From the NCBI RefSeq assembly GCF_004345565.1, contig NZ_SLWA01000008.1, positions 124,001 through 188,000 of the forward strand: a stretch of 64,000 bases of DNA, given 5' to 3'. Below the pieces are notes generated by a model. It saw only the letters and a list, made by a program, of their open reading frames with translations. It did no database searches and was not told the origin of the DNA. This stretch comes from Flavobacterium circumlabens. Lineage in GTDB: Bacteria; Bacteroidota; Bacteroidia; Flavobacteriales; Flavobacteriaceae. A program made the position numbers and the translations under genes. Below, piece after piece: positions 2,494-64,000 of this stretch (position 1 is the stretch's first letter; each line of letters starts with the position of its first letter).

Positions 2494-2868
2494 ATGTCAG
2501 ATTTTTTACAGAATTTTCAAAACGATTTAAAAGAGAATATTAATGGATTTATTGCCGTTTCAGTAACTGAGGTTGAAACAGGAATGTCTTATTGTTCACT
2601 TTCTTTAAATCCAAATTTTGACCCTGAATTAGCATCCGCTTATAATTTAGAAGTCGTAAAAGCAAAATTGAATGCCATCAAAGCTTTAGGATTAGATCAA
2701 AAAATCAATGATATCTTAATTACACTAACAGATCAGATACACATTATAGATGTTTCTGAAGATGGTAAATATTTTATTTACCTTGCGGTTGATGCTACCA
2801 AAGCAAATCTTGGATTAACAAGAGCAACTTTGGCGAAATTCAAAAAGGATATTATCTCAAAATTATAA
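2494..2868 (+). CDS. Hypothetical protein, partner of the roadblock-type protein
   Basis: Protein of 124 residues beginning MSDFLQNFQNDL. Its order of segments resembles the upstream gene: N-terminal helix, strand pair (INGFIAVSVTEVETGMSY), long central helix with many small residues (ASAYNLEVVKAKLNAIKAL), strands (DILITLTDQIHIIDVS and YFIYLAVD) and a C-terminal helix. This suggests a second roadblock-like subunit. The 17-bp gap indicates co-transcription. A terminator follows at 2893. Function unknown; polarity or GTPase regulation would be a guess based on the neighbour. Confidence 0.7.
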   Translation: MSDFLQNFQNDLKENINGFIAVSVTEVETGMSYCSLSLNPNFDPELASAYNLEVVKAKLNAIKALGLDQKINDILITLTDQIHIIDVSEDGKYFIYLAVDATKANLGLTRATLAKFKKDIISKL

Positions 2869-2892
2869 TGTAATTTTGCCCCCAATAATGAG

Positions 2893-2930
2893 AAAAAGGC
2901 TGTTTCAAAATTTTTTGAACAGCCTTTTTT
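2893..2930. terminator. Bidirectional intrinsic terminator
   Basis: AAAAAGGCTGTT pairs with AACAGCCTTTTT around a 13-nt loop. A-runs on one side and T-runs on the other allow use from both strands. It sits between two convergent genes (ends 2868 on plus, 2949 on minus). Confidence 0.85.
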
Positions 2931-2948
2931 GCTTTTGCAGGTTGTGAT

Positions 2949-3725
2949 TTATTTAAAGAAATCAGCTAATATTACTTTCAATTCTTCTTTGTTTTCAATC
3001 TGACTCATATGTCCATCGTCAAAAGAAACAAGTTCTGCAGTTGTATCTTCTATTTGTGTTATGTTTTCTTCGTAGTTTAAAACCGGATCTTTCCTGCCTA
3101 AAACCAATAAAACCGGAAAAAGATTTCCGCGTAATAGTGCCTCCCTGTCTTTTCTGATTTTCATTCCTTCTAAAGAAGCTACAATTCCCTGTAATGGAGT
3201 CTTTAAGGCCTGAATTTTAACTTTCTCAATTTCTGCTGCTAATTTTGTTCTGTTGTTTTCACTAAACAAATTCGCTATAGCGAGGCTTACAAAGGCTACA
3301 TAATTTTGTTTCACCGCTTTAATGGCGCGGGTTCTGTTTAATTTTTTCTCGGCGCTGTCTTCTTTGGCAGTAGAATTTAATAAAACTAATTTCTTAATGC
3401 TGGCCGGATATAATTCAGCCAGAGCCAAAGCAACATAACCTCCCATAGAATGTCCTGCAACAATTGCTTTTCCGATTTTTAAATGTTCTAAAACTTCCTG
3501 GACAACATGGGCATTATCTTCCATAGAATGTACATAGCCCAAAGAATCCGATTCTCCGTGGCCTAATAAATCGATTGTGACAACTCGGTATTCTTCAGAA
3601 AAAAGAGCAACATATTCCTGCCACATTGTTTTGTTTTCCAGAAAACCGTGCAGCAACACAATTGCTGTTCCTTGGCCGGAATCGGTATAAGATATTTTGG
3701 TGTTTTTGTATAATAGCGTTTTCAA
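2949..3725 (-). CDS. Alpha/beta hydrolase
   Basis: 258 residues, single alpha/beta-hydrolase fold with no signal peptide, so cytoplasmic. Visible motifs: oxyanion-hole segment LLHGFLEN after strand 3, nucleophile elbow GHSMGG, the acid in LGRKDPVL and the catalytic His in DDGHMSQIEN. Size and the HGF...GHSMGG layout resemble the MenH/esterase-like group, but substrate cannot be told from sequence and no menaquinone genes are adjacent. Monocistronic between two terminators. Confidence 0.85.
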   Translation of the reverse strand: MKTLLYKNTKISYTDSGQGTAIVLLHGFLENKTMWQEYVALFSEEYRVVTIDLLGHGESDSLGYVHSMEDNAHVVQEVLEHLKIGKAIVAGHSMGGYVALALAELYPASIKKLVLLNSTAKEDSAEKKLNRTRAIKAVKQNYVAFVSLAIANLFSENNRTKLAAEIEKVKIQALKTPLQGIVASLEGMKIRKDREALLRGNLFPVLLVLGRKDPVLNYEENITQIEDTTAELVSFDDGHMSQIENKEELKVILADFFK

Positions 3726-3779
3726 GACGTTTGATTTAAGTATAAAATTAAGGTATTATTTTAAAACGGCAGTAAAATT

Positions 3780-3815
3780 AAAACGGCTCGCATTTCTGAA
3801 AGCCGTTTGTTTTTT
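3780..3815 (-). terminator. Intrinsic terminator
   Basis: AAACGGCT at 3781-3788 pairs with AGCCGTTT at 3801-3808, followed on plus by GTTTTTT and preceded by AAATTA. The left end of the minus-strand hydrolase gene at 3814 touches the structure, so it most likely ends that gene. Confidence 0.6.
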
Positions 3816-4713
3816 ATGATTTCAAAAAGGAATTTATTTCTAGGAAAAACTTTTCCCGAGCATCCAGCCATCCATAATGTTTGGAATGTTCGAGGAAAAC
3901 CAGTTTTGAATTGGGAAGTGTCTGATGTGCCAGTTCTCCAATTTCGTTACTGATAATATCTTCTTTTCCCTGAATGATCAGCACCGGATTTCTGAATTGT
4001 TTCAATTTCGTTTTGCAGTCAAAATTCATTTTCTGCATATCACCCCATAACAGCCCGTTTATAGTCGAATTGCCTTGTGTTAATCTTTCGGCGATTATTG
4101 GGGCATATTGCTGATCGTAAACATAGGCAGGTGCCATAGCTCTTCCTCTTCCGATTCTTGCTGTGTATGAAGTATCGCCTTTTTCGATTTTAGTATTCCA
4201 GTAATTCAGGGAATCTTTTTGAGACTGATTCAGGCCCGCTTCTATAAGGTTGGCGCTTTTCAGCAAAGTCAGATCAACACCTCCGGAAGACGATAAAATT
4301 AATTTGTCGATACTTTCCGGATAAAGGGTCGCATAATAAGAAGCCAGCATTCCTCCAAAAGAATGCCCGAGAATGTTCCATTTTTTGATTTTAAGATGTT
4401 TTCTCAATGACTCGATATCACCAGCCATTAATTGCATCGAAATAGTCTTAGCGTTTAAATTTGTCAATTTTGATTTTCCCGTTCCCCTTTGGTCGTAAAT
4501 AATGGTTTCCTGATTTTCAGACAGCTTTTTGGCCATGTCTTCAAAACCATTACTGTTCATTCCCGGTCCGCCATTAATAATTAAAAGCGGTTCACCTTTT
4601 CCGAATGTTTTATAGTACGTCAGGCTGGAATCACTGTTCTTAGCATAGCCTTCCGTTTGAGCGAAAGCCTTACCAAGAAAGATCAGACAGGTAATTAGAA
4701 AAAGCTTTTTCAT
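3814..4713 (-). CDS. Secreted alpha/beta hydrolase, proline iminopeptidase-like (S33)
   Basis: 299 residues with a clear signal peptide (MKKLFLITCLIFLGKAFAQ), so exported. Features of the S33 prolyl aminopeptidase group are present: oxyanion motif GGPGMNSNG, YDQRGTGKS, nucleophile elbow GHSFGG, acid in IQGKEDIIS and His in LEHSKHYGW. Its start lies 8 bp from the end of the upstream aminopeptidase P gene (4722), and both run in the same direction, which suggests a two-gene operon for peptide turnover (Xaa-Pro bonds by PepP, N-terminal residues by this enzyme). Substrate is an inference; other S33-like hydrolases share these motifs. Confidence 0.85.
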   Translation of the reverse strand: MKKLFLITCLIFLGKAFAQTEGYAKNSDSSLTYYKTFGKGEPLLIINGGPGMNSNGFEDMAKKLSENQETIIYDQRGTGKSKLTNLNAKTISMQLMAGDIESLRKHLKIKKWNILGHSFGGMLASYYATLYPESIDKLILSSSGGVDLTLLKSANLIEAGLNQSQKDSLNYWNTKIEKGDTSYTARIGRGRAMAPAYVYDQQYAPIIAERLTQGNSTINGLLWGDMQKMNFDCKTKLKQFRNPVLIIQGKEDIISNEIGELAHQTLPNSKLVFLEHSKHYGWLDAREKFFLEINSFLKS

Positions 4714-4721
4714 TGCAATGC

Positions 4722-6014
4722 TTATGAATTCATTAAACTCTCGATTTCATCTGCTTCAATCGGAATATTGCGCATCAGGTTAAATGGCTCTCCTTTTTCC
4801 TGCACCACAACGTTGTCTTCCAAACGGATTCCGAAACCTTCTGCCGGAATGTAGATTCCTGGTTCAACCGTAAAAACCATATTGGCTTTCATGGGTTCGT
4901 GCAGCAATCCGTAATCGTGCGTGTCCAGTCCCATGTGGTGGGAAGTTCCGTGCATGAAATATTTTTTGTAGGCTGGCCATTCCGGATTTTCGTTCTGAAC
5001 ATCGGCTTTGTCAATTAAGCCCAGACCCAGTAATTCAGAAGTCATGATTTTACCTACTTCAATATGGTATTGTTTCCAAAGTGTTCCCGGAGTCAGCATT
5101 TTGGTGGCTTCGTTTTTTACTTTTAGAACCGCATTGTAAACTGCTTTTTGTCTTTCGGAATATCTCCCTGAAACCGGAATTGTTCTGGTCATATCGCTAG
5201 AATAGTTAGCATATTCAGCCGCTACATCCAGTAAAATCAAATCACCGGCTTTACATTGCTGGTTGTTTTCGATATAATGCAAAACGTTTGCACTGTTTCC
5301 TGATGCAATAATTGGGGTGTAAGCAAAACCTTTAGAACGGTTGCGAATGAATTCGTGAATCAGTTCAGCTTCGATTTCATATTCGGTCACATTTGGTTTT
5401 ACAAACGATAATAATCTTCGGAAACCTTTCTCGGTAATATCACATGCCTGCTGAATCAAATCGATTTCTTCGCTTTCTTTTACAGAACGTATGCGTTGCA
5501 AGATTGGGTTGCTTTTCGATACGTTGTGTGCCGGATAACGTTCTTTCCACCATTTTACGAAACGGGCTTCACGGGTTTCTGTTTCCACGGTAGCACGGTA
5601 ATGTTCGTTGGTGTTGATGTACATCGTGTCGGCATACGTCATCATTTCGTTCAAAATTTTATGAAAATCCTGTAACCAATACACCGTTCTGATTCCTGAA
5701 ACCTGAAAAGCGCGTTCTTTACTTAGCTTTTCACCTTCCCAAACTGCAATATGATCGTTGGTTTCTTTCAGGAAAAGAATCTCTTTTTGGTTCTCGTAAG
5801 GCGCATCCGGAAACAAAAGCAAAATACTTTCTTCCTGATCGACACCGCTCAGATAAAAAATGTCTCTGTGTTGTGCAAACGGCAAAGTACTGTCGGCACT
5901 AACGGGGTAAATGTCATTGGAATTGAAAACGGCAACACTGTTAGGTTTCATTTCTGCCGTGAATTTTCTGCGGTTTTTTACAAAAAGAGCGCTGTTTATT
6001 TGATGATATTTCAT
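4722..6014 (-). CDS. pepP: Xaa-Pro aminopeptidase (aminopeptidase P, M24B)
   Basis: 430 residues, normal length for aminopeptidase P. The N-terminal AMP_N domain (about 1-130) is followed by the pita-bread catalytic domain. The five metal ligands can be seen: Asp in LLDVAAEY, Asp in SSDMTRTIPV, His in GTSHHMGLDTHD, Glu in TVEPGIYIP and Glu in GIRLEDNVVV. It removes N-terminal residues that precede proline, using two Mn ions, in the cytoplasm. It is the first gene of a likely pair with the S33-like hydrolase downstream (8-bp gap). Confidence 0.95.
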   Translation of the reverse strand: MKYHQINSALFVKNRRKFTAEMKPNSVAVFNSNDIYPVSADSTLPFAQHRDIFYLSGVDQEESILLLFPDAPYENQKEILFLKETNDHIAVWEGEKLSKERAFQVSGIRTVYWLQDFHKILNEMMTYADTMYINTNEHYRATVETETREARFVKWWKERYPAHNVSKSNPILQRIRSVKESEEIDLIQQACDITEKGFRRLLSFVKPNVTEYEIEAELIHEFIRNRSKGFAYTPIIASGNSANVLHYIENNQQCKAGDLILLDVAAEYANYSSDMTRTIPVSGRYSERQKAVYNAVLKVKNEATKMLTPGTLWKQYHIEVGKIMTSELLGLGLIDKADVQNENPEWPAYKKYFMHGTSHHMGLDTHDYGLLHEPMKANMVFTVEPGIYIPAEGFGIRLEDNVVVQEKGEPFNLMRNIPIEADEIESLMNS

Positions 6015-16837: not shown

Positions 16838-17584
16838 ATGAAACTTACATTAAAAATATGGCGTCAGAAAAACGCCCAGGATAAAGGAGGAATCGTTGAT
16901 TACCCAATTGACGGAATCGAACCAGATATGTCTTTCCTTGAAATGCTTGATGTTCTTAACGAACAATTGATCAATAAAGGAGAAGAGCCTGTAGCATTTG
17001 ACCACGATTGTCGTGAAGGAATCTGCGGAATGTGTTCATTATTCATCAACGGAGAAGCACACGGACCGGACAGAGGAGTTACTACTTGTCAGTTACACAT
17101 GCGTATGTTTAAAGATGGTGATACGATTTTTATCGAGCCATTCAGAGCTAAAGCTTTCCCGGTAATTAAAGATTTAGTGGTTGATAGAAGTTCTTTCGAC
17201 AGAATTCAGCATGCAGGAGGATTTGTTTCTGTAAATACTTCAGGAAATACCATTGATGCCAATACCATTCCGATTAACAAACATGATGCAGATAAATCTT
17301 TTGATGCTGCTGCGTGTATTGGTTGCGGAGCTTGTGTAGCAACTTGTAAAAACTCATCGGCTATGTTGTTCGTTGGGGCTAAAGTATCTCAATATGCATT
17401 ATTGCCTCAGGGTAAAGTTGAAGCTGTTGATCGTGTTTTAAACATGGTGCACCAAATGGATTTAGAAGGCTTTGGTAACTGTACCAACACCGGAGCTTGT
17501 GAAATAGAATGTCCTAAAGGAATTTCTCTTGAAAATATCGCACGTATGAACCGTGAGTATTTAGCGGCAAGCTTAAAAGGATAA
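16838..17584 (+). CDS. sdhB: Succinate dehydrogenase iron-sulfur subunit
   Basis: 248 residues. [2Fe-2S] ligands are in [12 protein letters not shown] plus the later Cys in VTTCQLH; the [4Fe-4S] and [3Fe-4S] ligands are in [14 protein letters not shown] and [15 protein letters not shown]. It carries electrons from the flavin in SdhA to the hemes in SdhC. Last gene of the operon, 49 bp after sdhA, followed by a terminator. Confidence 0.97.
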
Positions 17585-57067: not shown

Positions 57068-58414
57068 ATGTTTAAAAAAATATTAATTGCGAATAGAGGA
57101 GAAATTGCACTTCGTGTAATTCGTACATGTAAAGAGATGGGAATTAAAACTGTAGCAATTTACTCTACAGCCGATGCTGAAAGTCTACATGTTAAGTTTG
57201 CTGACGAAGCGGTTTGTATTGGACCTCCTCCAAGTAACTTATCGTATTTGAAAATGTCAAATATCATTGCTGCTGCAGAAATTACCAATGCAGACGCAAT
57301 ACACCCGGGTTATGGATTTCTTTCTGAGAATGCTAAATTCTCAAAAATTTGTCAGGAACACGGAATCAAATTTATTGGTGCTGCACCGGAAATGATTGAT
57401 AAAATGGGTGATAAAGCTTCTGCCAAGGCTACGATGAAAGCTGCAGGAGTTCCATGTGTACCAGGTTCCGAAGGATTATTAGAATCTTTCGAACAGACAC
57501 AAAAATTAGCTAAAGAATTCGGTTACCCGGTGATGCTTAAAGCTACTGCAGGTGGTGGTGGAAAAGGAATGCGTGCTGTCTGGAAAGAAGAAGAGCTTTT
57601 GAAAGCCTGGGAAAGTGCACGTCAGGAAGCTTCCGCAGCATTTGGAAATGACGGAATGTACATGGAGAAACTTATTGAAGAACCACGTCATATCGAAATT
57701 CAGGTGGTTGGAGATTCATACGGAAAAGCATGTCACCTTTCAGAAAGAGACTGCTCGGTACAACGTCGTCACCAAAAACTTACTGAAGAAACTCCTTCCC
57801 CTTTCATGACCGATGAATTGCGTAATGCAATGGGAGCAGCAGCCGTAAAAGCAGCTGAGTTCATTAAATACGAAGGAGCCGGAACAGTAGAATTTTTGGT
57901 TGACAAACACAGAAACTTCTATTTCATGGAAATGAATACCCGTATTCAGGTAGAGCATCCGATTACAGAACAAGTTATTGATTATGATTTGATCCGTGAG
58001 CAGATTATGGTAGCAGCCGGAATTCCAATTTCAGGAAAAAACTACTTACCGGAACTACACGCTATCGAATGTCGTATTAATGCTGAGGATCCTTATAACG
58101 ATTTTCGCCCTTCACCGGGAAAAATTACTACGCTTCATATGCCGGGAGGTCATGGAGTACGTTTAGATACACACGTTTATTCAGGTTATACGATTCCGCC
58201 AAATTACGATTCGATGATTGCGAAGTTAATTACAACAGCACAATCACGTGAAGAAGCCATTAGCAAAATGCGAAGAGCTTTAGATGAATTCGTTATCGAA
58301 GGGGTGAAAACTACAATACCTTTCCATAGACAATTAATGGATGATCCGAGATATATTGCAGGAGATTATACCACTGCATTTATGGATACTTTTAAAATGA
58401 ATCCAATAGAATAA
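57068..58414 (+). CDS. accC: Biotin carboxylase of acetyl-CoA carboxylase
   Basis: 448 residues, usual length. N-terminal [23 protein letters not shown]-grasp glycine loop [46 protein letters not shown] and [12 protein letters not shown] are all present. It carboxylates the biotin on AccB with ATP and bicarbonate. Terminator 6 bp later. Confidence 0.97.
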
Positions 58415-58419
58415 AGATA

Positions 58420-58447
58420 AAGGCTGTCGATTTCGACAGCCTTTTTT
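58420..58447 (+). terminator. Terminator behind accC
   Basis: AAAGGCTGTCGA pairs with TCGACAGCCTTTTTT across a two-base turn (TT), just after the accC stop. Confidence 0.9.
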
Positions 58448-58466: not shown

Positions 58467-58498
58467 AAACCCGACAGGTTTTAAAACCTGTCGGGTTT
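58467..58498. repeat. 32-bp perfect palindrome of the CCCGACAGG type
   Basis: AAACCCGACAGGTTTT directly followed by its reverse complement AAAACCTGTCGGGTTT. I recognise it as a palindromic element that recurs between genes in Flavobacterium and relatives. It could double as a back-up terminator. Confidence 0.6.
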
Positions 58499-58717
58499 CT
58501 GATCGTAAATACCGAAGTAAACACTTTTTGTGTATACTTTTTACACACTATTTCGTAATAGTATACAGTTTTTTACAGTTCTAAATTTTGGCACATTTAG
58601 CTTAATGCTTTGTTTTAAAGGGCTTAAGGGGTTTGTTGGGCGATTTTGAAGTTGCGGCACAATAATTTCATTATCTAAAGCGTAAAACAACTATTAAATA
58701 ATTTAAATATATACATT
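58499..58717 (+). promoter_or_regulatory. Region upstream of the five-paralogue cluster
   Basis: Contains TGTATAC (58531-58537) and GTATACA (58561-58567) as an inverted pair with 23 bp between, and a perfect small hairpin ACTATT-TCGT-AATAGT at 58547-58562. These are candidate operator or sensor structures for the small secreted proteins. I found no convincing -24/-12 (sigma-54) box, though the adjacent regulator is sigma-54 dependent. Confidence 0.3.
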
Positions 58718-59014
58718 ATGAAAAATTTATTTTTATCAGCCGCAATCGTTTTGGGAGGTTTAACTTCATTTGCTTCAACTTCTCCGATAACTACTACAAT
58801 CGTAAAAACAATCTCAGTTCAGGATGAATATACTGAAATCAAATTAGAAGAATTGCCAGCTGCAGTTACAGAAGCTTTGAAAAAAGCATACCCGGATGCA
58901 GTACTTTCTAAAGCATACAAAAATGCAAAATCAGAATACAAACTGGACGTTACCGTAGGAGACAAAACAGGTAATCTTTTCGCTAACGCAGACGGAACCT
59001 GGATTAAAAAATAA
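58718..59014 (+). CDS. Small secreted PepSY-like protein, paralogue 1
   Basis: 98 residues with a signal peptide (NLFLSAAIVLGGLTSFAS) and one domain of about 65 residues: EIKLEELPAAVTEALKKAYP, DAVLSKAYKNAKSEYKLDV, GNLFANADGTWIKK. The pattern (helix with LP-AV-x-ALKKAYPDA, then strands with an EYK core) matches the PepSY-like/beta-lactamase-inhibitor-like family (DUF2874). Exported; function unknown, probably periplasmic. First of five tandem copies. Confidence 0.85.
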   Translation: MKNLFLSAAIVLGGLTSFASTSPITTTIVKTISVQDEYTEIKLEELPAAVTEALKKAYPDAVLSKAYKNAKSEYKLDVTVGDKTGNLFANADGTWIKK

Positions 59015-59084
59015 TTTAGTGTTCCCGTGAAAATTCAAATCAAGAATACTAAGATCAAATTAACAATATTAAAATATAACTACC

Positions 59085-59381
59085 ATGAAAAATTTATTTT
59101 TATCAGCCGCAATCGTTTTGGGAGGTTTAACATCATTTGCCTCAACCTCGCCAATCACAAATACAATCGTAAAAACAATCTCGATTCAGGAAGAATATAC
59201 TGAAATCAAATTAGAGGAAGTTCCGGCAGCAATTACTGATGCTCTTAAAAAAGCATATCCGGATGCAGTACTTTCCAAAGCATATAAAAATGCAAGTTCG
59301 CAATACAAACTAGACGTTACAGTTGGTGATAAAGTAGGATCTCTTTTTGCAAATGCAGACGGATCCTGGATCAAAAAATAA
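59085..59381 (+). CDS. Small secreted PepSY-like protein, paralogue 2
   Basis: 98 residues, nearly identical to paralogue 1: the first 30 residues differ by one (SPITNTIV for SPITTTIV) and the first 60 bases are almost the same, so this is a recent tandem duplication. The differences are concentrated in the mature domain (KNASSQYKLDV for KNAKSEYKLDV). 70 bp after paralogue 1. Confidence 0.85.
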   Translation: MKNLFLSAAIVLGGLTSFASTSPITNTIVKTISIQEEYTEIKLEEVPAAITDALKKAYPDAVLSKAYKNASSQYKLDVTVGDKVGSLFANADGSWIKK

Positions 59382-59407
59382 CCAACTTAACTAAAAAACT
59401 ATAGATT

Positions 59408-59698
59408 ATGAAAAAATTAATTTTATCTGCGGCAATAGTTCTGGGAACTATGTCAATGCAGGCTGGAAACACTTATGTTAAAAGTGCTGTTATTCAGTCA
59501 GAAATCACACAGGACGAATATAAAGAAATTGATGCTGTTCCGGCAGCTATTAAAACAGCTTTAGATAATGCTTACCCTGGAGTAAAGCTGGAGAAAGCTT
59601 ATGTTAACGAAAAGAAAGAATACAAAATTGACATTATTGTAAGAGAAGAAAAATCTACTGTTTACACGGATGCCAAAGGAAATATTCTTAAAAAATAA
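59408..59698 (+). CDS. Small secreted PepSY-like protein, paralogue 3
   Basis: 96 residues. Signal peptide (KLILSAAIVLGTMSMQA) and domain IDAVPAAIKTALDNAYPGVK, KAYVNEKKEYKIDIIVREEK. It belongs to a second subgroup that shares LEKAYVNEKKEYK with paralogue 4. 26 bp after paralogue 2. Confidence 0.83.
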   Translation: MKKLILSAAIVLGTMSMQAGNTYVKSAVIQSEITQDEYKEIDAVPAAIKTALDNAYPGVKLEKAYVNEKKEYKIDIIVREEKSTVYTDAKGNILKK

Positions 59699-59730
59699 AC
59701 TAATTATCAATAACCCACAAAACAATCATT

Positions 59731-60030
59731 ATGAAAAAGTTACTAGTATCAACAGCAATCGTTTTAGGAAGTTTAACTGTTAACGCAGCTACAGCTCCGG
59801 TAATAAAAACTTCAGTGAATCAATCGGTAACAATTCAGGATGAGTTTACTGAGGTTAGTGCAGATGCTGTTCCGGCAGCCGTAAAGTCAACAGTTGAAAA
59901 ATCTTTTCCGGGTACAAAACTTGAAAAAGCGTATGTAAACGAGAAGAAAGAGTATAAACTTGAAATCTCTAAAGGAGATAAAAAATACACCGTATTCACA
60001 GATGCTGCAGGAAACATCATTAAAAAATAA
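59731..60030 (+). CDS. Small secreted PepSY-like protein, paralogue 4
   Basis: 99 residues. Signal peptide (LLVSTAIVLGSLTVNAA), domain with ADAVPAAVKSTVEKSFPGTK and KAYVNEKKEYKLEISKGDKK. Closest to paralogues 3 and 5. 32 bp after paralogue 3; the stop is 5 bp before paralogue 5. Confidence 0.83.
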   Translation: MKKLLVSTAIVLGSLTVNAATAPVIKTSVNQSVTIQDEFTEVSADAVPAAVKSTVEKSFPGTKLEKAYVNEKKEYKLEISKGDKKYTVFTDAAGNIIKK

Positions 60031-60035
60031 ATAAG

Positions 60036-60332
60036 ATGAAAAAGATAGTTTTATCAGCAGCAATCGTTTTAGGAAGTTTGTCTATTTACGCCACATCAAT
60101 GGTACATTCAGAAGAAGTAAAAATTGAGGCAGAGTACCAGACTGAATATACGGAGATCGGAGCAGATACTGTTCCGGTGCCAGTCAAAAAAGCACTGGAG
60201 ACTGCTTACCCGGGTGCTAAATTGGTTAAAGCTTACGTAAACGATAAAAAAGAATACAAATTAGATATAGCAGTTGGTGACCAAAAGGCTACTGTTTACT
60301 CAGATGTCAATGGCAATTGGTTGAAAATATAA
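60036..60332 (+). CDS. Small secreted PepSY-like protein, paralogue 5
   Basis: 98 residues. Signal peptide (KIVLSAAIVLGSLSIYA), domain TVPVPVKKALETAYPGAKLV, KAYVNDKKEYKLDIAVGDQK and end NWLKI. The other four copies end in two Lys, this one in LKI. Last gene before a terminator. Confidence 0.83.
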   Translation: MKKIVLSAAIVLGSLSIYATSMVHSEEVKIEAEYQTEYTEIGADTVPVPVKKALETAYPGAKLVKAYVNDKKEYKLDIAVGDQKATVYSDVNGNWLKI

Positions 60333-60364
60333 TTAGGTGAATTAGATTTATGTTTTTGGTGAAA

Positions 60365-60398
60365 AAGAGATTGTTTAAATAACAATCTCTTTTTTTTT
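60365..60398 (+). terminator. Terminator of the paralogue cluster
   Basis: AAAGAGATTGTT, loop TAAA(T), AACAATCTCTTT followed by further T residues, about 32 bp after paralogue 5. Confidence 0.88.
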
Positions 60399-60461
60399 GC
60401 AAAATTTTGTGAAAATACAAGTTTAATAGTATTATTTTAGCAAAAAAGTACCAAAAAGCAA

Positions 60462-61805
60462 ATGCCAAAGATATTACTAATAGAAGATGATATTTCATTC
60501 TGCAAATTATTAGAGAAGTTTCTGATAAAAAAAGAGTATGAAGTTATTGTTGCTTTTTCAGCAGCAGAAGCCCGGTTAGCAATTAAAAATCAATCTTTTG
60601 ATTTGATTTTGACGGATCTTCGTTTGCCTGATTCTGATGGCATTGGACTGATGGCTGAATTTAAGGCCTCCAACCCTGAAACACCTGTAATATTGATGAC
60701 AGGCTATTCGGATGTAAATACGGCGGTAAAAGCGATCAAAAACGGTGCTGCCGACTATATTTCCAAACCGTTTAATCCGGATGAGGTTTTGCTGGTAATT
60801 ACAAATGCGTTACAGACTCCGCAGACAGAAGCTCCCGCCAAAGAAAAGAAACCAATTAGGAAACCAAATAATACAAGCGAAAACGAATTTGTAAAAGGAA
60901 TTTCTATTGCTTCCAAAAAACTATTGGACCACATTCAATTGGTCAGCCCTACCGATATGTCGGTTTTGATTATTGGAGAAAGTGGGACAGGTAAAGAAAT
61001 CATCGCGAAAAGTATTCATGAGCAAAGTAACAGAAAAAACAATAATTTTATTGCTGTTGATTGTGGTGCCATTCCGAAAGAACTGGCGGCAAGCGAATTT
61101 TTCGGACACCTGAAAGGATCTTTTACCGGAGCAATCAGCGATAAAATGGGCTATTTTGAAGCCGCTAACGGAGGAACTCTTTTCCTGGATGAAATAGGGA
61201 ATCTTTCTTATGAAAATCAGATACAGCTGCTAAGAGCACTTCAGGAAAGAAAGATTAAACCCGTTGGAAGTAATAAAGAAATAAACGTCGATATCAGAAT
61301 CATTACGGCAACTAATGAAGATTTACGCGAAGCAGTCAAAAATGGTGATTTCCGTGAAGATTTATACCACAGGATTAATGAGTTTTCGATTCAGTCTCCT
61401 TCACTGACCGACAGAGGAGAAGATTTGATGGTTTTCGCCGATTATTTTCTGGAGAAAGCCAATCAGCAATTAAATAAGGAAATTATCGGTTTTGCACCGG
61501 AAGTAGTCCAGATTTTTCAGAACTACAGCTGGCCCGGAAATTTACGTGAACTTCAGAATTGCGTAAAACGTGCCACTTTATTGTCTCGAGGCGATTTTAT
61601 TGAAAGTGACGTATTGCCGGCCGAATTTTTTCAGATTCAGAAGCAGCAAACTGCGACAGGGAATTTCTCCTTGTCCGATAACGAGAAAGAAACTATCATT
61701 CATGCGTTATCAAAAGCACAGAACAATAAATCCGAAGCCGCAAAAATGCTTAAAATTACCAGAAAAACACTTTACAATAAATTAAAGCAGTACAATATAG
61801 ATTAA
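60462..61805 (+). CDS. Sigma-54-dependent response regulator (NtrC family)
   Basis: 447 residues. Receiver domain (about 1-115) with phospho-acceptor Asp52 in LILTDLRLP, acidic pocket ED at 8-10 and Lys102 in SKPF. Sigma-54 AAA+ domain with Walker A GESGTGKE (172-179), the sigma-54 contact loop written GSFTGA (219-224; GAFTGA is most common), Walker B FLDEIG, then a Fis-type HTH at the C-terminus (NKSEAAKMLKITRKTLYNKL). It activates RpoN promoters after phosphorylation. Convergent with the hybrid kinase gene (4-bp overlap of stops), which may be its partner. Confidence 0.95.
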   Translation: MPKILLIEDDISFCKLLEKFLIKKEYEVIVAFSAAEARLAIKNQSFDLILTDLRLPDSDGIGLMAEFKASNPETPVILMTGYSDVNTAVKAIKNGAADYISKPFNPDEVLLVITNALQTPQTEAPAKEKKPIRKPNNTSENEFVKGISIASKKLLDHIQLVSPTDMSVLIIGESGTGKEIIAKSIHEQSNRKNNNFIAVDCGAIPKELAASEFFGHLKGSFTGAISDKMGYFEAANGGTLFLDEIGNLSYENQIQLLRALQERKIKPVGSNKEINVDIRIITATNEDLREAVKNGDFREDLYHRINEFSIQSPSLTDRGEDLMVFADYFLEKANQQLNKEIIGFAPEVVQIFQNYSWPGNLRELQNCVKRATLLSRGDFIESDVLPAEFFQIQKQQTATGNFSLSDNEKETIIHALSKAQNNKSEAAKMLKITRKTLYNKLKQYNID

Positions 61806-64000
61806 ACGATTTCCTGTTTTAAAGAGGTGAACAGGATCTCCGTTTTGGTTTTTAATTTTTCCAAAACACCTTTCAGATCCTCCTTTTTATATTCCTCTTT
61901 CTCTAACGCTTTTAGAATATTCGCAATTTCATTCGACTGAATCTGCTTAAACATGGGCGCAATTCTGTGGGCAATAGCACCAATTTGCGCGGTGTTGTTT
62001 TCAATAATAGCAGTGTCTAAATAAACCAGATTTTCTTCTGTACTCTCAATAAAGGAGTTTATAACATCCTTTAAGGATTCATTGTCATTTCCTAAAAACT
62101 CTTTCAGGGTTTCTAAGGAATAAAGTTGTGTATAGGAAATTTCTTCAATAGGTTTAATTGCATCCATTGGAAGAGGATTGTGCGCTAAAATTTGATGAAT
62201 TGTTTCCAATAACACTTTTGGCGAATAGGGTTTTTTAATAACACTTGTAAACCCGGCATTGCTGTAAACAGAAAAATCCAGATCGGTTCGTCCCGTCAGT
62301 GCAATAACCGGTTGGTTTTTGAATGTAGTAGTATTGGTGCTTTTTAATTTTTCAATAAACATAAAGCCATCCATTTCCGGCATCTGAATATCGGTAATGA
62401 TAAAATCGAAATTGGTAGTAGCAATAGTGTCTAATGCTTTCGATGCCCTGTTGAAAGATAAAACATGATGTTTTTCCTGTTTTAAAACCCCGCTCGTTAA
62501 ATTCAGTAGATTAATATCATCATCAATTACAATAAAAGTCTGTTTTTTCATCTTAGTGAAAACGGGCTGCTTTTTAATTTCTGGAGGAGTATAGGGACTA
62601 TTGTCAAATAATAAGGGAAGTCTGATTTCAAAAGTACTTCCTTCTCCAAAAGTACTTTCAAGGGTTAGATTTCCTCCCAGAATTGTTATTATTTTTTGAC
62701 AGATCGAAAGACCAAGACCGGTTCCTCCATATTTTTTTTCGATGTTTTCGTTGGCCTGGGCAAATTCCTCAAAGACCAGTTGTTGATTTGCTTTTTCAAT
62801 TCCGATTCCGGTGTCTTCTATGGTAATCACAAAAAAAGCATCATCACTCACATAAGAACTGATTTTTATAAAACCTTCTTCTGTAAATTTATATGCATTT
62901 CCCACAAGGTTGGTCAGGATCTGTTTCAGACGAAACGGATCTCCGACAATCTTGCTGTTCAGTTTTTCATCAACATTAATAATAAGATCGATGTTTTTGT
63001 TTTTATAAACAGTCTGTATATTTCTGGCTGCATCCTCAATCACTTCCGGTAACACGAAAGGTACTTTTTCGATGCTGATTTTTCCGGCTTCGATTTGAGA
63101 AAAATCCAGTAAATCCTGAACTAACTGTGAAATATATTCAGAGGAGTTTTTTATGTTTTTAACGAAATACGATTGTTTGGTATTGACATCCGAATTGCCC
63201 AAAAGTTCGGTGTAACCTACAATGGTGCTCAAAGGTGTTTTTAAATCATGGCTCACGGTCGAAATTAGCTGTTCCCGGCTTTTAAGCAGGTTTTTGGTTT
63301 TGAAGTTCGCAATTTCCAGCTGTTTTTTGTAAAGCTGTGATTTGGAGTAATCACTCACAATTAAGATAGAGAAGAATACCGTTAAAAACAGCCCGATAAT
63401 AGCAGAAACCGTTACAATTTCGTTGACTTTTTTAAGTGATTTTTCTTTTAGTAAATTGTTTTTTATCGAGTTAATGATAATTTCTCTTTCAATAATACGA
63501 AGTACTTTCCGGAGTTGTTCCGATATGGCAATTTCATTTTTAAGCAGTTTGTTTTCTTCGAAATTCAGGGATTCCTTTTTCTTTTCTGCCTTTAGTTTTA
63601 CGTTGCTCAACAGCTTTTTCGAATTGGCCAGAATAGAGTCAGAGGCTTGTTTGCTCAGCGTATTAGTGCTGTCGTCCGGAATATTCTGATTCAGGTAATC
63701 GACATATTTCTGGAGCACATTTCGTTGGTAACTGCCTAAATCATTCGGATTTTTGTTAAAATCCCGTAGTTCTAATTTACGCAGTTTAAACTCCATTTTA
63801 GTAATTTCGTTAATAGCCGTATTCACCGAAACTTCATCCTCGGCTTTGCTTTTTATGGCTTTTAACTGTTTTATATTATCTGTTTTTTCAGATAAGAAAT
63901 ACGTGACACTATCTAATAATACTTTCTGATATTCGGTAGTGACAATTTGTTTTAAGGTATCTATTCTGGATTTTAAGGAATCCGTTTCGATCAGGTAACT
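61802..64000 (-). CDS. Hybrid sensor histidine kinase, N-terminus outside the window
   Basis: The frame is open to the right edge, so the start is missing; a GTG at 63826 is internal. Visible order from the N-terminal side: helical sensory region, one membrane span (VSAIIGLFLTVFFSILIVSD), linker, HisKA with phospho-His in STVSHDLKTPLSTIVGYTEL, HATPase (LKQILTNLVGNAYKFTEEG, ITIEDTGIGIEKANQ, YGGTGLGLSICQKI), receiver domain with Asp in FIITDIQMPEMDGF, and a C-terminal Hpt domain with His in IGAIAHRIAPMF. A complete phosphorelay in one protein. Only one span is seen; a second may lie in the missing part. Confidence 0.93.
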   Translation of the reverse strand, partial: SYLIETDSLKSRIDTLKQIVTTEYQKVLLDSVTYFLSEKTDNIKQLKAIKSKAEDEVSVNTAINEITKMEFKLRKLELRDFNKNPNDLGSYQRNVLQKYVDYLNQNIPDDSTNTLSKQASDSILANSKKLLSNVKLKAEKKKESLNFEENKLLKNEIAISEQLRKVLRIIEREIIINSIKNNLLKEKSLKKVNEIVTVSAIIGLFLTVFFSILIVSDYSKSQLYKKQLEIANFKTKNLLKSREQLISTVSHDLKTPLSTIVGYTELLGNSDVNTKQSYFVKNIKNSSEYISQLVQDLLDFSQIEAGKISIEKVPFVLPEVIEDAARNIQTVYKNKNIDLIINVDEKLNSKIVGDPFRLKQILTNLVGNAYKFTEEGFIKISSYVSDDAFFVITIEDTGIGIEKANQQLVFEEFAQANENIEKKYGGTGLGLSICQKIITILGGNLTLESTFGEGSTFEIRLPLLFDNSPYTPPEIKKQPVFTKMKKQTFIVIDDDINLLNLTSGVLKQEKHHVLSFNRASKALDTIATTNFDFIITDIQMPEMDGFMFIEKLKSTNTTTFKNQPVIALTGRTDLDFSVYSNAGFTSVIKKPYSPKVLLETIHQILAHNPLPMDAIKPIEEISYTQLYSLETLKEFLGNDNESLKDVINSFIESTEENLVYLDTAIIENNTAQIGAIAHRIAPMFKQIQSNEIANILKALEKEEYKKEDLKGVLEKLKTKTEILFTSLKQEIV

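Follow-up and report, generated by a model that had tools for sequence, protein, structure and literature searches.

ZraPSR is a sigma-54 two-component system with a small periplasmic protein, ZraP, and both ZraP and CpxP hold the kinase off until stress titrates them away. Small RNAs (sRNAs) can be under sigma-54 control as well, GlmY/GlrR and Qrr/LuxO being examples. In the case of cpxP/CpxQ, a periplasmic protein is accompanied by an sRNA derived from the 3′ untranslated region (3′ UTR; PMC4817254). For Flavobacterium psychrophilum, PMC9723704 describes a sigma-54 regulon that comprises envelope-stress functions, chaperones, exported proteins of unknown function and the sRNA Rfp36, and a further conserved sRNA, Rfp18, that affects two protease mRNAs. 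The family PF11396 (PepSY_like, DUF2874; BVU2987, structure 3due) has been proposed to be inhibitory, usually with two domain copies per protein, and no member had been biochemically characterised as of 2010 (PMC2954215); the words ‘operon’ and ‘two-component’ are absent from the main text of that paper. Here, we describe an array of five small genes for PepSY_like relatives next to a response regulator and a histidine kinase in Flavobacterium circumlabens (contig NZ_SLWA01000008.1, positions 124,001 to 188,000; this whole stretch of 64,000 nucleotides (nt) is called the window, and positions are counted within it). In our view, the array probably serves as a dedicated output of the two-component system beside it, i.e. 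an envelope-response module with one transcript, exported products of PepSY/BLIP (beta-lactamase inhibitor protein) fold and a probable 3′ UTR RNA. No published description of the locus was found in the literature searched, within which the module, with its likely second, RNA output, is undescribed. Papers retrieved there mention a PepSY-domain protein of Bizionia and a PepSY-TM protein of F. columnare, which may or may not be related to the array.

The five open reading frames (ORFs) of the array lie head to tail on the forward strand at 58718-60332, with intergenic gaps of 70, 26, 32 and 5 nt (Table 1). By eye, each protein starts with a signal-peptide-like segment; none of the five contains a cysteine, and the part past residue 20 amounts to 8.5-8.7 kDa. 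A preliminary description of this DNA had noted five tandem small secreted paralogues in two subgroups, which is borne out: paralogues 1 and 2 are 89% identical, while paralogues 3-5 have the motif KAYVN[ED]KKEYK in common and are 43-46% identical to paralogue 1. This is not a chance arrangement, because 79 named loci, taken from the best 80 of 185 places, carry such an array with three to six copies (five in 52, six in 19, four in 7 and three in 1). Keeping only the best places means that relatives with few copies are sampled too sparsely, and some arrays may be truncated by contig ends; all labels are Flavobacterium or Flavobacteriaceae, save one [Flexibacter] sp.

The proposed relation of these proteins to PepSY-like and BLIP-like proteins stands at the level of the superfamily, by profile and predicted fold, and fails at the PF11396 cut-off of 28.3 bits, which paralogues 3, 4 and 5 miss with 18.9, 27.6 and 19.0 bits and paralogues 1 and 2 do not approach with any match at E≤0.01. 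Among 43 diverse homologues, 30 match PF11396 at E≤0.01 (best 7.2e-7). The profile built from these 43 finds the solved structure 3u1w with E 5.9e-7 when summed over repeats (best single stretch 0.0099), and the solved PepSY_like structures 3due and 3db7 with 1.9e-6 and 5.7e-5, respectively. An AlphaFold model of paralogue 5, made with 62 sequences, consists of one helix and a small sheet (mean predicted local distance difference test score 74.9, blocks from residue 41 on 82-89; predicted template modelling score 0.51). In VIA-align, this model reaches Z 8.9 to 3u1w (root-mean-square deviation 1.7 over 62 residues) and Z 8.0 to 4hbr and 4k61, with cystatins and others next at Z 4-6. Since such Z values are at or just over the level that the tool describes as usual for models that lack a clear match, the family assignment rests largely on the sequence profile. 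Judged by profile and model together, which relate them to solved members of the superfamily, the array proteins are divergent single-domain PepSY_like (DUF2874/BLIP-like) relatives rather than members of PF11396. No CpxP/ZraP-type Pfam match at E≤0.01 was found among the five window proteins and the 43 aligned homologues. Elsewhere in the genome, two further PF11396 genes (C2:569110 and C7:68127) stand without an adjoining sigma-54 regulator. In L341 (G000 C7:63500-73000, 2617-4915 therein), a weakly PepSY_like gene of 157 amino acids (aa) lies behind a different two-component-like pair, a 345-aa membrane protein and a 232-aa response regulator that looks LytTR-like by eye.

The response regulator starts 129 nt past the last PepSY gene and is of the NtrC type, with Pfam scores above the cut-off for the receiver (REC, 95.8 bits), the AAA+ domain (Sigma54_activat, 227.2) and the Fis-type helix-turn-helix (HTH_8, 51.0). 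The loop within its AAA+ domain reads GSFTGA, the consensus of sigma-54 activators being GAFTGA. ZraR is its best NCBIfam model, at 394.5 bits and thus below the equivalog cut-off of 760. The preliminary description had placed both components of the two-component system directly downstream of the array, which applies to the regulator, on the same strand; the kinase gene is on the opposite strand, convergent to it, and is cut by the window end. Because this gene starts ~240 nt outside the window (L090), the window holds an N-terminally cut copy. The whole kinase has two hydrophobic segments (approximately residues 7-33 and 273-301) that are about 250 residues apart, along with HisKA, HATPase_c, a receiver and a sub-cut-off Hpt match. 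The genome contains one copy of rpoN.

Among 199 genomes of the genus, the profile of the five proteins matches 69, the regulator (E≤1e-120) 86 and the kinase (E≤1e-110) 67. All 56 genomes with a regulator of at least 71% identity, our own included, also match PepSY and kinase (Fisher 2.7e-37, related genomes not being independent). PepSY genes lie directly 5′ of the regulator in 55 of these 56, as seen in fetched loci, and likewise in G004 by listed coordinates. The 13 further genomes with PepSY matches divide into eight with a regulator of 59-62% identity and five whose matches are weak (1.9e-5 to 8.7e-4) and that lack such a regulator. Apart from our own, 85 genomes match the regulator, and we fetched the loci of 80 of these (all except G004, G027, G084, G144 and G172), which together with the window gives 81 loci; in 63 of them, one to six PepSY genes directly precede the regulator. 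A wider profile matches 47 of 296 genomes drawn from the order, and outside the genus the succession of PepSY gene, regulator and convergent kinase recurs in seven of 12 fetched PepSY loci, representing four other genera of the family (L322-L326) and a second family (L335, L337). By these sequence comparisons, array, regulator and kinase are inherited together as a conserved two-component module.

A link of the array to the adjacent sigma-54 regulator, as suggested before, finds further backing in the control region. A box of the form GG[CT]A[CT]-N5-TT[TC][CT] is present 30-85 nt 5′ of the leading gene in all 61 loci that combine a linked PepSY gene with enough upstream sequence (two of the 63 being too short), as opposed to a shuffle mean of 0.5 and a maximum of 3, and a palindrome pattern further upstream occurs in 45 of the 61 (shuffle mean 1.2); both patterns were drawn from these same loci, which are not independent where related. 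In the named loci, box and palindrome are found in 79/79 and 73/79, respectively. A longer promoter core built from these loci has a single exact match in the genome, at the array, and the palindrome pattern GTGT-N8-TACACA occurs at four places, three of them in unrelated settings, which is why the regulator looks dedicated to the array operon at the sequence level; weaker sites would be missed. Other sites in the genome comprise seven one-mismatch matches to the promoter core (two in the reversed-pattern control) and the three other palindrome matches (control 2), and no PepSY-like gene was seen behind any of these in the ORF listing, where again weaker sites would escape notice. The pattern TTGG[CT]AC-N5-TT[GT]C[AT]T has four matches in the genome, all with TTTC, versus three in the control, which gives no guidance on TTGC versus TTTC. 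In three loci from other genera (L322, L324 and L326), later PepSY copies carry their own box, counted without a shuffle control. The promoter-like box as such is conserved; its sigma-54 activity is putative.

Taken together, these elements suggest the following mechanism. The membrane kinase would sense the state of the envelope via its extracytoplasmic region, and phosphate would pass from HisKA via the receiver and Hpt to the NtrC-type regulator, a route suggested by the domains. The regulator may then bind the conserved upstream palindrome and drive sigma-54 RNA polymerase at the -24/-12-like box. All five genes are expected on one transcript because there is a single conserved promoter-like box, the gaps measure 5-70 nt and a terminator-like hairpin follows at the end; the 3′ UTR of this transcript would be processed into an RNA. 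By analogy with the PepSY/BLIP superfamily, the exported small domains, of predicted BLIP/PepSY fold, might bind and restrain a periplasmic partner, candidates for which are a protease, a misfolded protein or the sensor of the kinase itself as a feedback.

Several observations weigh against this module being the dedicated, sigma-54-driven unit that we propose. The box in the window has GG-N10-TC and a -12 element reading TTTC, whereas sigma-54 promoters have a GG-N10-GC core and TTGC, and owing to this departure we call it sigma-54-like. The palindrome pattern is absent in 16 of the 61 loci. On the protein side, the Hpt match of the kinase scores 14.3 bits with a cut-off of 24.6, and Foldseek with the paralogue 5 model returns PepSY_like family members as its best matches at weak E-values (0.016 for 3u1w). 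The regulator is less than 71% identical in 26 of the 81 loci, and it can work without a PepSY gene because 18 of the 81 have none adjoining. Five of the 12 loci from outside the genus did not show the whole arrangement: in L327, L328 and L329 a PepSY gene is present and the regulator is missing, L336 stops at a contig edge, and no PepSY ORF was seen in L339.

In analogy to CpxP and ZraP, the PepSY proteins could instead be mainly ligands of the extracytoplasmic region of the kinase that hold it off until stress titrates them, in which case extra copies would tune sensitivity or read several stress clients. We judge this possible, if rather doubtful. The joint presence of PepSY genes and kinase in the 56 genomes speaks for it, as does the absence of both from the fetched stretch of L189, L191 and L192 and of eight of 12 loci with an RNA only (see below), but in seven loci (L172, L173, L175, L183, L186, L187 and L195) the kinase is retained and no PepSY gene is linked. 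L172 and L173, with a regulator of 65% and a kinase of 42-43% identity, have a gene for a ~500-aa membrane-protein-like product upstream in place of PepSY. L189, L191 and L192 are orphan regulator relatives in which no clear promoter box was seen.

Returning to the array as output of the system, its transcript probably has a second, RNA product in the form of the conserved 3′ UTR, as judged from sequence conservation. In the 37 genomes of the window's clade, the mean majority fraction is 0.99 for the 36 nt behind the last stop codon, 0.88 for the hairpin and 0.90 beyond, and the pattern of the 36-nt element recurs in 72 of the 79 named loci. The fold of 60330-60400 has a z of -3.92 (two of 200 shuffles were as good), and the hairpin went unreported by the terminator scan. 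As with CpxQ, there is thus a conserved 3′ UTR segment that ends in a terminator.

A related arrangement exists in 12 loci that have no linked PepSY gene and a regulator of ~55-60% identity (L175, L182, L183, L184, L186, L187, L188, L190, L193, L194, L196 and L197). Here, a conserved non-coding stretch with a terminator precedes the regulator, and no conserved ORF was found in those stretches that were read; the L175 locus opens at a contig end, 402 nt upstream of the regulator. An alignment of ten of these loci yields three stems with changes on both sides in nine of 25 pairs, a number reached by none of 500 shuffles and compared with 0-3 in slid controls; in the second stem, no pair changed on both sides, and the number of pair types was reached by 83 of 500 shuffles. 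No Rfam family was found at gathering score in the ten aligned loci (L175 and L197 were left out of this search). Matches to Rfam Flavo-1 in L186 (4782-4862) and L183 (8965-9043) do not overlap the aligned RNA and were discarded.

The core of this RNA also occurs with protein genes. Made up of TATAGTAAGGTGATT, the stem GAAGAAT/ATTCTTC and the terminator, it is the 3′ UTR of the single PepSY gene in L174, L177, L179, L180, L181 and L331, and in L176 and L178, of the same clade, stem and terminator are kept and the AGTAAGGTGA core is not. The 11-nt TAGTAAGGTGA is invariant in 16 aligned sequences (17 were extracted; L331, a near copy of L181, was left out). A covariance model of the RNA found 15 of the 199 genomes, ten of which had supplied the model; the independent finds are G041 (63.9 bits; L197), G087 (L175), G033 and G191 (both in a PepSY 3′ UTR) and G144 (on a separate short contig). 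Weak matches of 37-38 bits off the usual place (G193:C47:9933, G033:C3:172032 and G144:C362:2030) are second copies or chance, and those in the window at 17562 and 17599 (E 0.0014 and 0.15), which coincide in part with a terminator-like hairpin, were taken as chance.

The RNA-only loci occupy two places in a tree of 90 regulators, one of which (L175, L186) is nested among PepSY-bearing loci (97/97, 95/82). This tree was rooted at the midpoint, several long branches meet in it, and nine loci were added as outgroups or relatives for having PepSY matches, so that the outside loci alone are no proof of the ancestral state. If PepSY was ancestral, the tree requires that the linked PepSY gene was lost four times, and in two of these cases the RNA stayed. 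Since no kinase relative (tblastn E≤1e-30) was found in the fetched stretch of eight of the 12 loci (L182, L184, L188, L190, L193, L194, L196 and L197), PepSY genes and kinase may have disappeared in succession. Among the 11 RNA-only loci scanned for the box (all but L197), seven score 9-10 of 10, which 0-8% of shuffles reach. A loose palindrome-like pattern, drawn up once the loci had been inspected, is found in 11/11 versus 2.3 from shuffles. Counting against an RNA arm under the same control, the box scores 8 in L187, L193 and L196 (18-34% of shuffles as high) and its pattern was not found in L183; weakness of box and palindrome in some of these loci weakens this reading. We therefore propose only tentatively, and just short of calling it probable, that one sigma-54 two-component system has both a protein and an RNA output in this operon, with the 3′ UTR as an sRNA, and that two Flavobacterium lineages lost the protein genes and kept the sRNA, mostly together with box and palindrome.

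That the 3′ UTR is a strong terminator or stability element only, with no regulatory RNA, seems on balance unlikely to us. It does end in a terminator-like hairpin, the lack of an Rfam family would fit, and AGGTGA alone is common to the 36-nt element of the window and the RNA core of the sister loci, whose homology is a guess. Against this reading, conservation is higher in the 36 nt ahead of the hairpin than in the hairpin or the stretch that follows, and in the sister loci the RNA is present with no PepSY gene and has paired changes in two of its three stems.

As to the array itself, copy number varies as the preliminary description had anticipated. Deep PepSY-bearing Flavobacterium branches of the tree have one gene and intermediate ones mostly two, 38 of the 44 members of one group (100/99) have four to six, and so do the 37 genomes of the window's clade. 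The order of orthologous groups in this clade is 1-1-4-3-5 in 21 genomes, 1-1-4-3-2-5 in six and 1-1-1-4-3-5 in five (32/37 in sum), with four others in the remaining five; the four main groups keep their order. Median dN/dS (ratio of nonsynonymous to synonymous substitution rates) of the mature part is 0.146, 0.163, 0.156, 0.159 and 0.224 by group, and none of 4273 mature pairs exceeds 1, as calculated for pairs with dS 0.2-1.5, with two single proteins left out and copies 1 and 2 mixed in group 1. Mature nucleotide identity within versus across genomes is 0.588 versus 0.585 for copy 1 and the last copy and 0.775 versus 0.762 for copies 1 and 2; paralogues of one genome being hardly more alike than those of different genomes, there is little homogenisation and little sign of gene conversion. 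These sequence data argue for copies that are old, specialised and constrained rather than in ongoing diversification, and the array most likely grew by stepwise tandem duplication into specialised copies, the tandem expansion itself being of an ordinary kind. Spacers of 211-385 nt between the last PepSY gene and the regulator in L156, L157, L158, L166, L168, L170 and L198 hold what seem by eye to be decayed remnants of PepSY coding sequence, a sign of gene loss in the array.

Dosage, suggested earlier and taken here as amplification of equivalent copies only for more protein, is quite improbable: copies 1 and 2 do belong to one group, of which 5/37 genomes have a third copy, but the distinct, conserved orthologous groups with their stable order and the scarcity of homogenisation point to specialised copies. 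Antigenic-like diversification, which tandem paralogues of variable copy number might bring to mind, is highly improbable and is rejected for the mature domain as a whole because mature domains are under purifying selection, with group order stable and the predicted fold that of solved periplasmic proteins.

Table 1. Features of the array and its surroundings in the window
Feature	Position	Strand	Basis
Terminator-like hairpin 3′ of accC, 5′ of the array	58419..58444	+	Terminator scan
Upstream palindrome TGTGTA-N7-TACACA, candidate upstream activating sequence of the response regulator	58529..58547	.	Conserved clade columns; pattern in relatives
Further conserved element resembling a half-site, TATACAG in the window and TTACACAC in many relatives	58562..58569	.	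Column conservation, aligned loci
Sigma-54-like -24/-12 box CGGCAC-N5-TTTC	58655..58669	+	Box pattern in relatives
PepSY_like paralogue 1, 98 aa, orthologous group 1	58718..59014	+	ORF, orthologous grouping
PepSY_like paralogue 2, 98 aa, orthologous group 1	59085..59381	+	ORF, orthologous grouping
PepSY_like paralogue 3, 96 aa, orthologous group 4	59408..59698	+	ORF, sub-cut-off Pfam match, grouping
PepSY_like paralogue 4, 99 aa, orthologous group 3	59731..60030	+	ORF, sub-cut-off Pfam match, grouping
PepSY_like paralogue 5, 98 aa, orthologous group 5	60036..60332	+	ORF, sub-cut-off Pfam match, fold, grouping
36-nt 3′ UTR, nearly invariant; candidate 3′ UTR-derived sRNA	60333..60368	+	Conservation in 37 genomes
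Terminator-like hairpin and T run closing the array	60361..60398	+	Fold of 60330-60400
NtrC-type response regulator: receiver, AAA+ sigma-54 interaction domain, Fis-type helix-turn-helix	60462..61805	+	Pfam domains; loop GSFTGA
Hybrid histidine kinase, C-terminal part in the window, convergent to the regulator	61802..64000	-	HisKA, HATPase_c, receiver, weak Hpt

Upstream of the array, ORF 57068-58414 is, as we take it from its sequence, accC. Between this gene and the array, the window has a perfect palindrome, CCCGACAGGTTTTAAAACCTGTCGGG, at 58470-58495, whose conservation in the clade is absent.

The locus ties PF11396-type proteins to one sensor-regulator pair and to one exact promoter-core match in the genome, meaning that its signal and role could come to light with one reporter and a small number of deletions. 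F. johnsoniae, a laboratory species, carries the module (strain CI04, L276), which makes it directly testable. If the 3′ UTR is an sRNA, the array would be a Bacteroidota counterpart of cpxP/CpxQ made from unrelated parts, and the sister loci a natural example of a dual transcript that lost its coding half and kept the non-coding one. Evolution itself would then have separated the RNA arm of an envelope response from its protein arm.

How does the module compare with the described systems? It has in common with ZraPSR that an NtrC-type sigma-54 regulator, for which ZraR is the best NCBIfam model, a membrane kinase and a small secreted protein are encoded together. Unlike there, the proteins have a PepSY/BLIP fold, lack cysteines in the window's copies and come in one to six copies, and the kinase is hybrid and convergent; with the regulator under the ZraR cut-off and no ZraP/CpxP-type match, the module is not a member of ZraPSR. 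In GlmY/GlrR and Qrr/LuxO, too, an sRNA stands behind a -24/-12 promoter with enhancer-binding activators. The same can be said of Rfp36 (PMC9723704); the present RNA is, in addition, homologous to the 3′ UTR that a protein gene has at the corresponding position in relatives. PF11396/DUF2874 proteins share fold and sequence superfamily as well as the periplasmic location, whereas the array proteins have one short domain each and are encoded in tandem. The likeness to CpxP/CpxQ (PMC4817254) is a two-component envelope output with one transcript for a periplasmic protein and, here probably, a 3′ UTR RNA. The differences are the other fold, the sigma-54-like control, the tandem copies, an RNA that is predicted only and sister lineages that appear to have dropped the protein. 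By analogy, the best reading is a dedicated envelope-response module that would work like ZraPSR or Cpx/CpxP with another protein fold.

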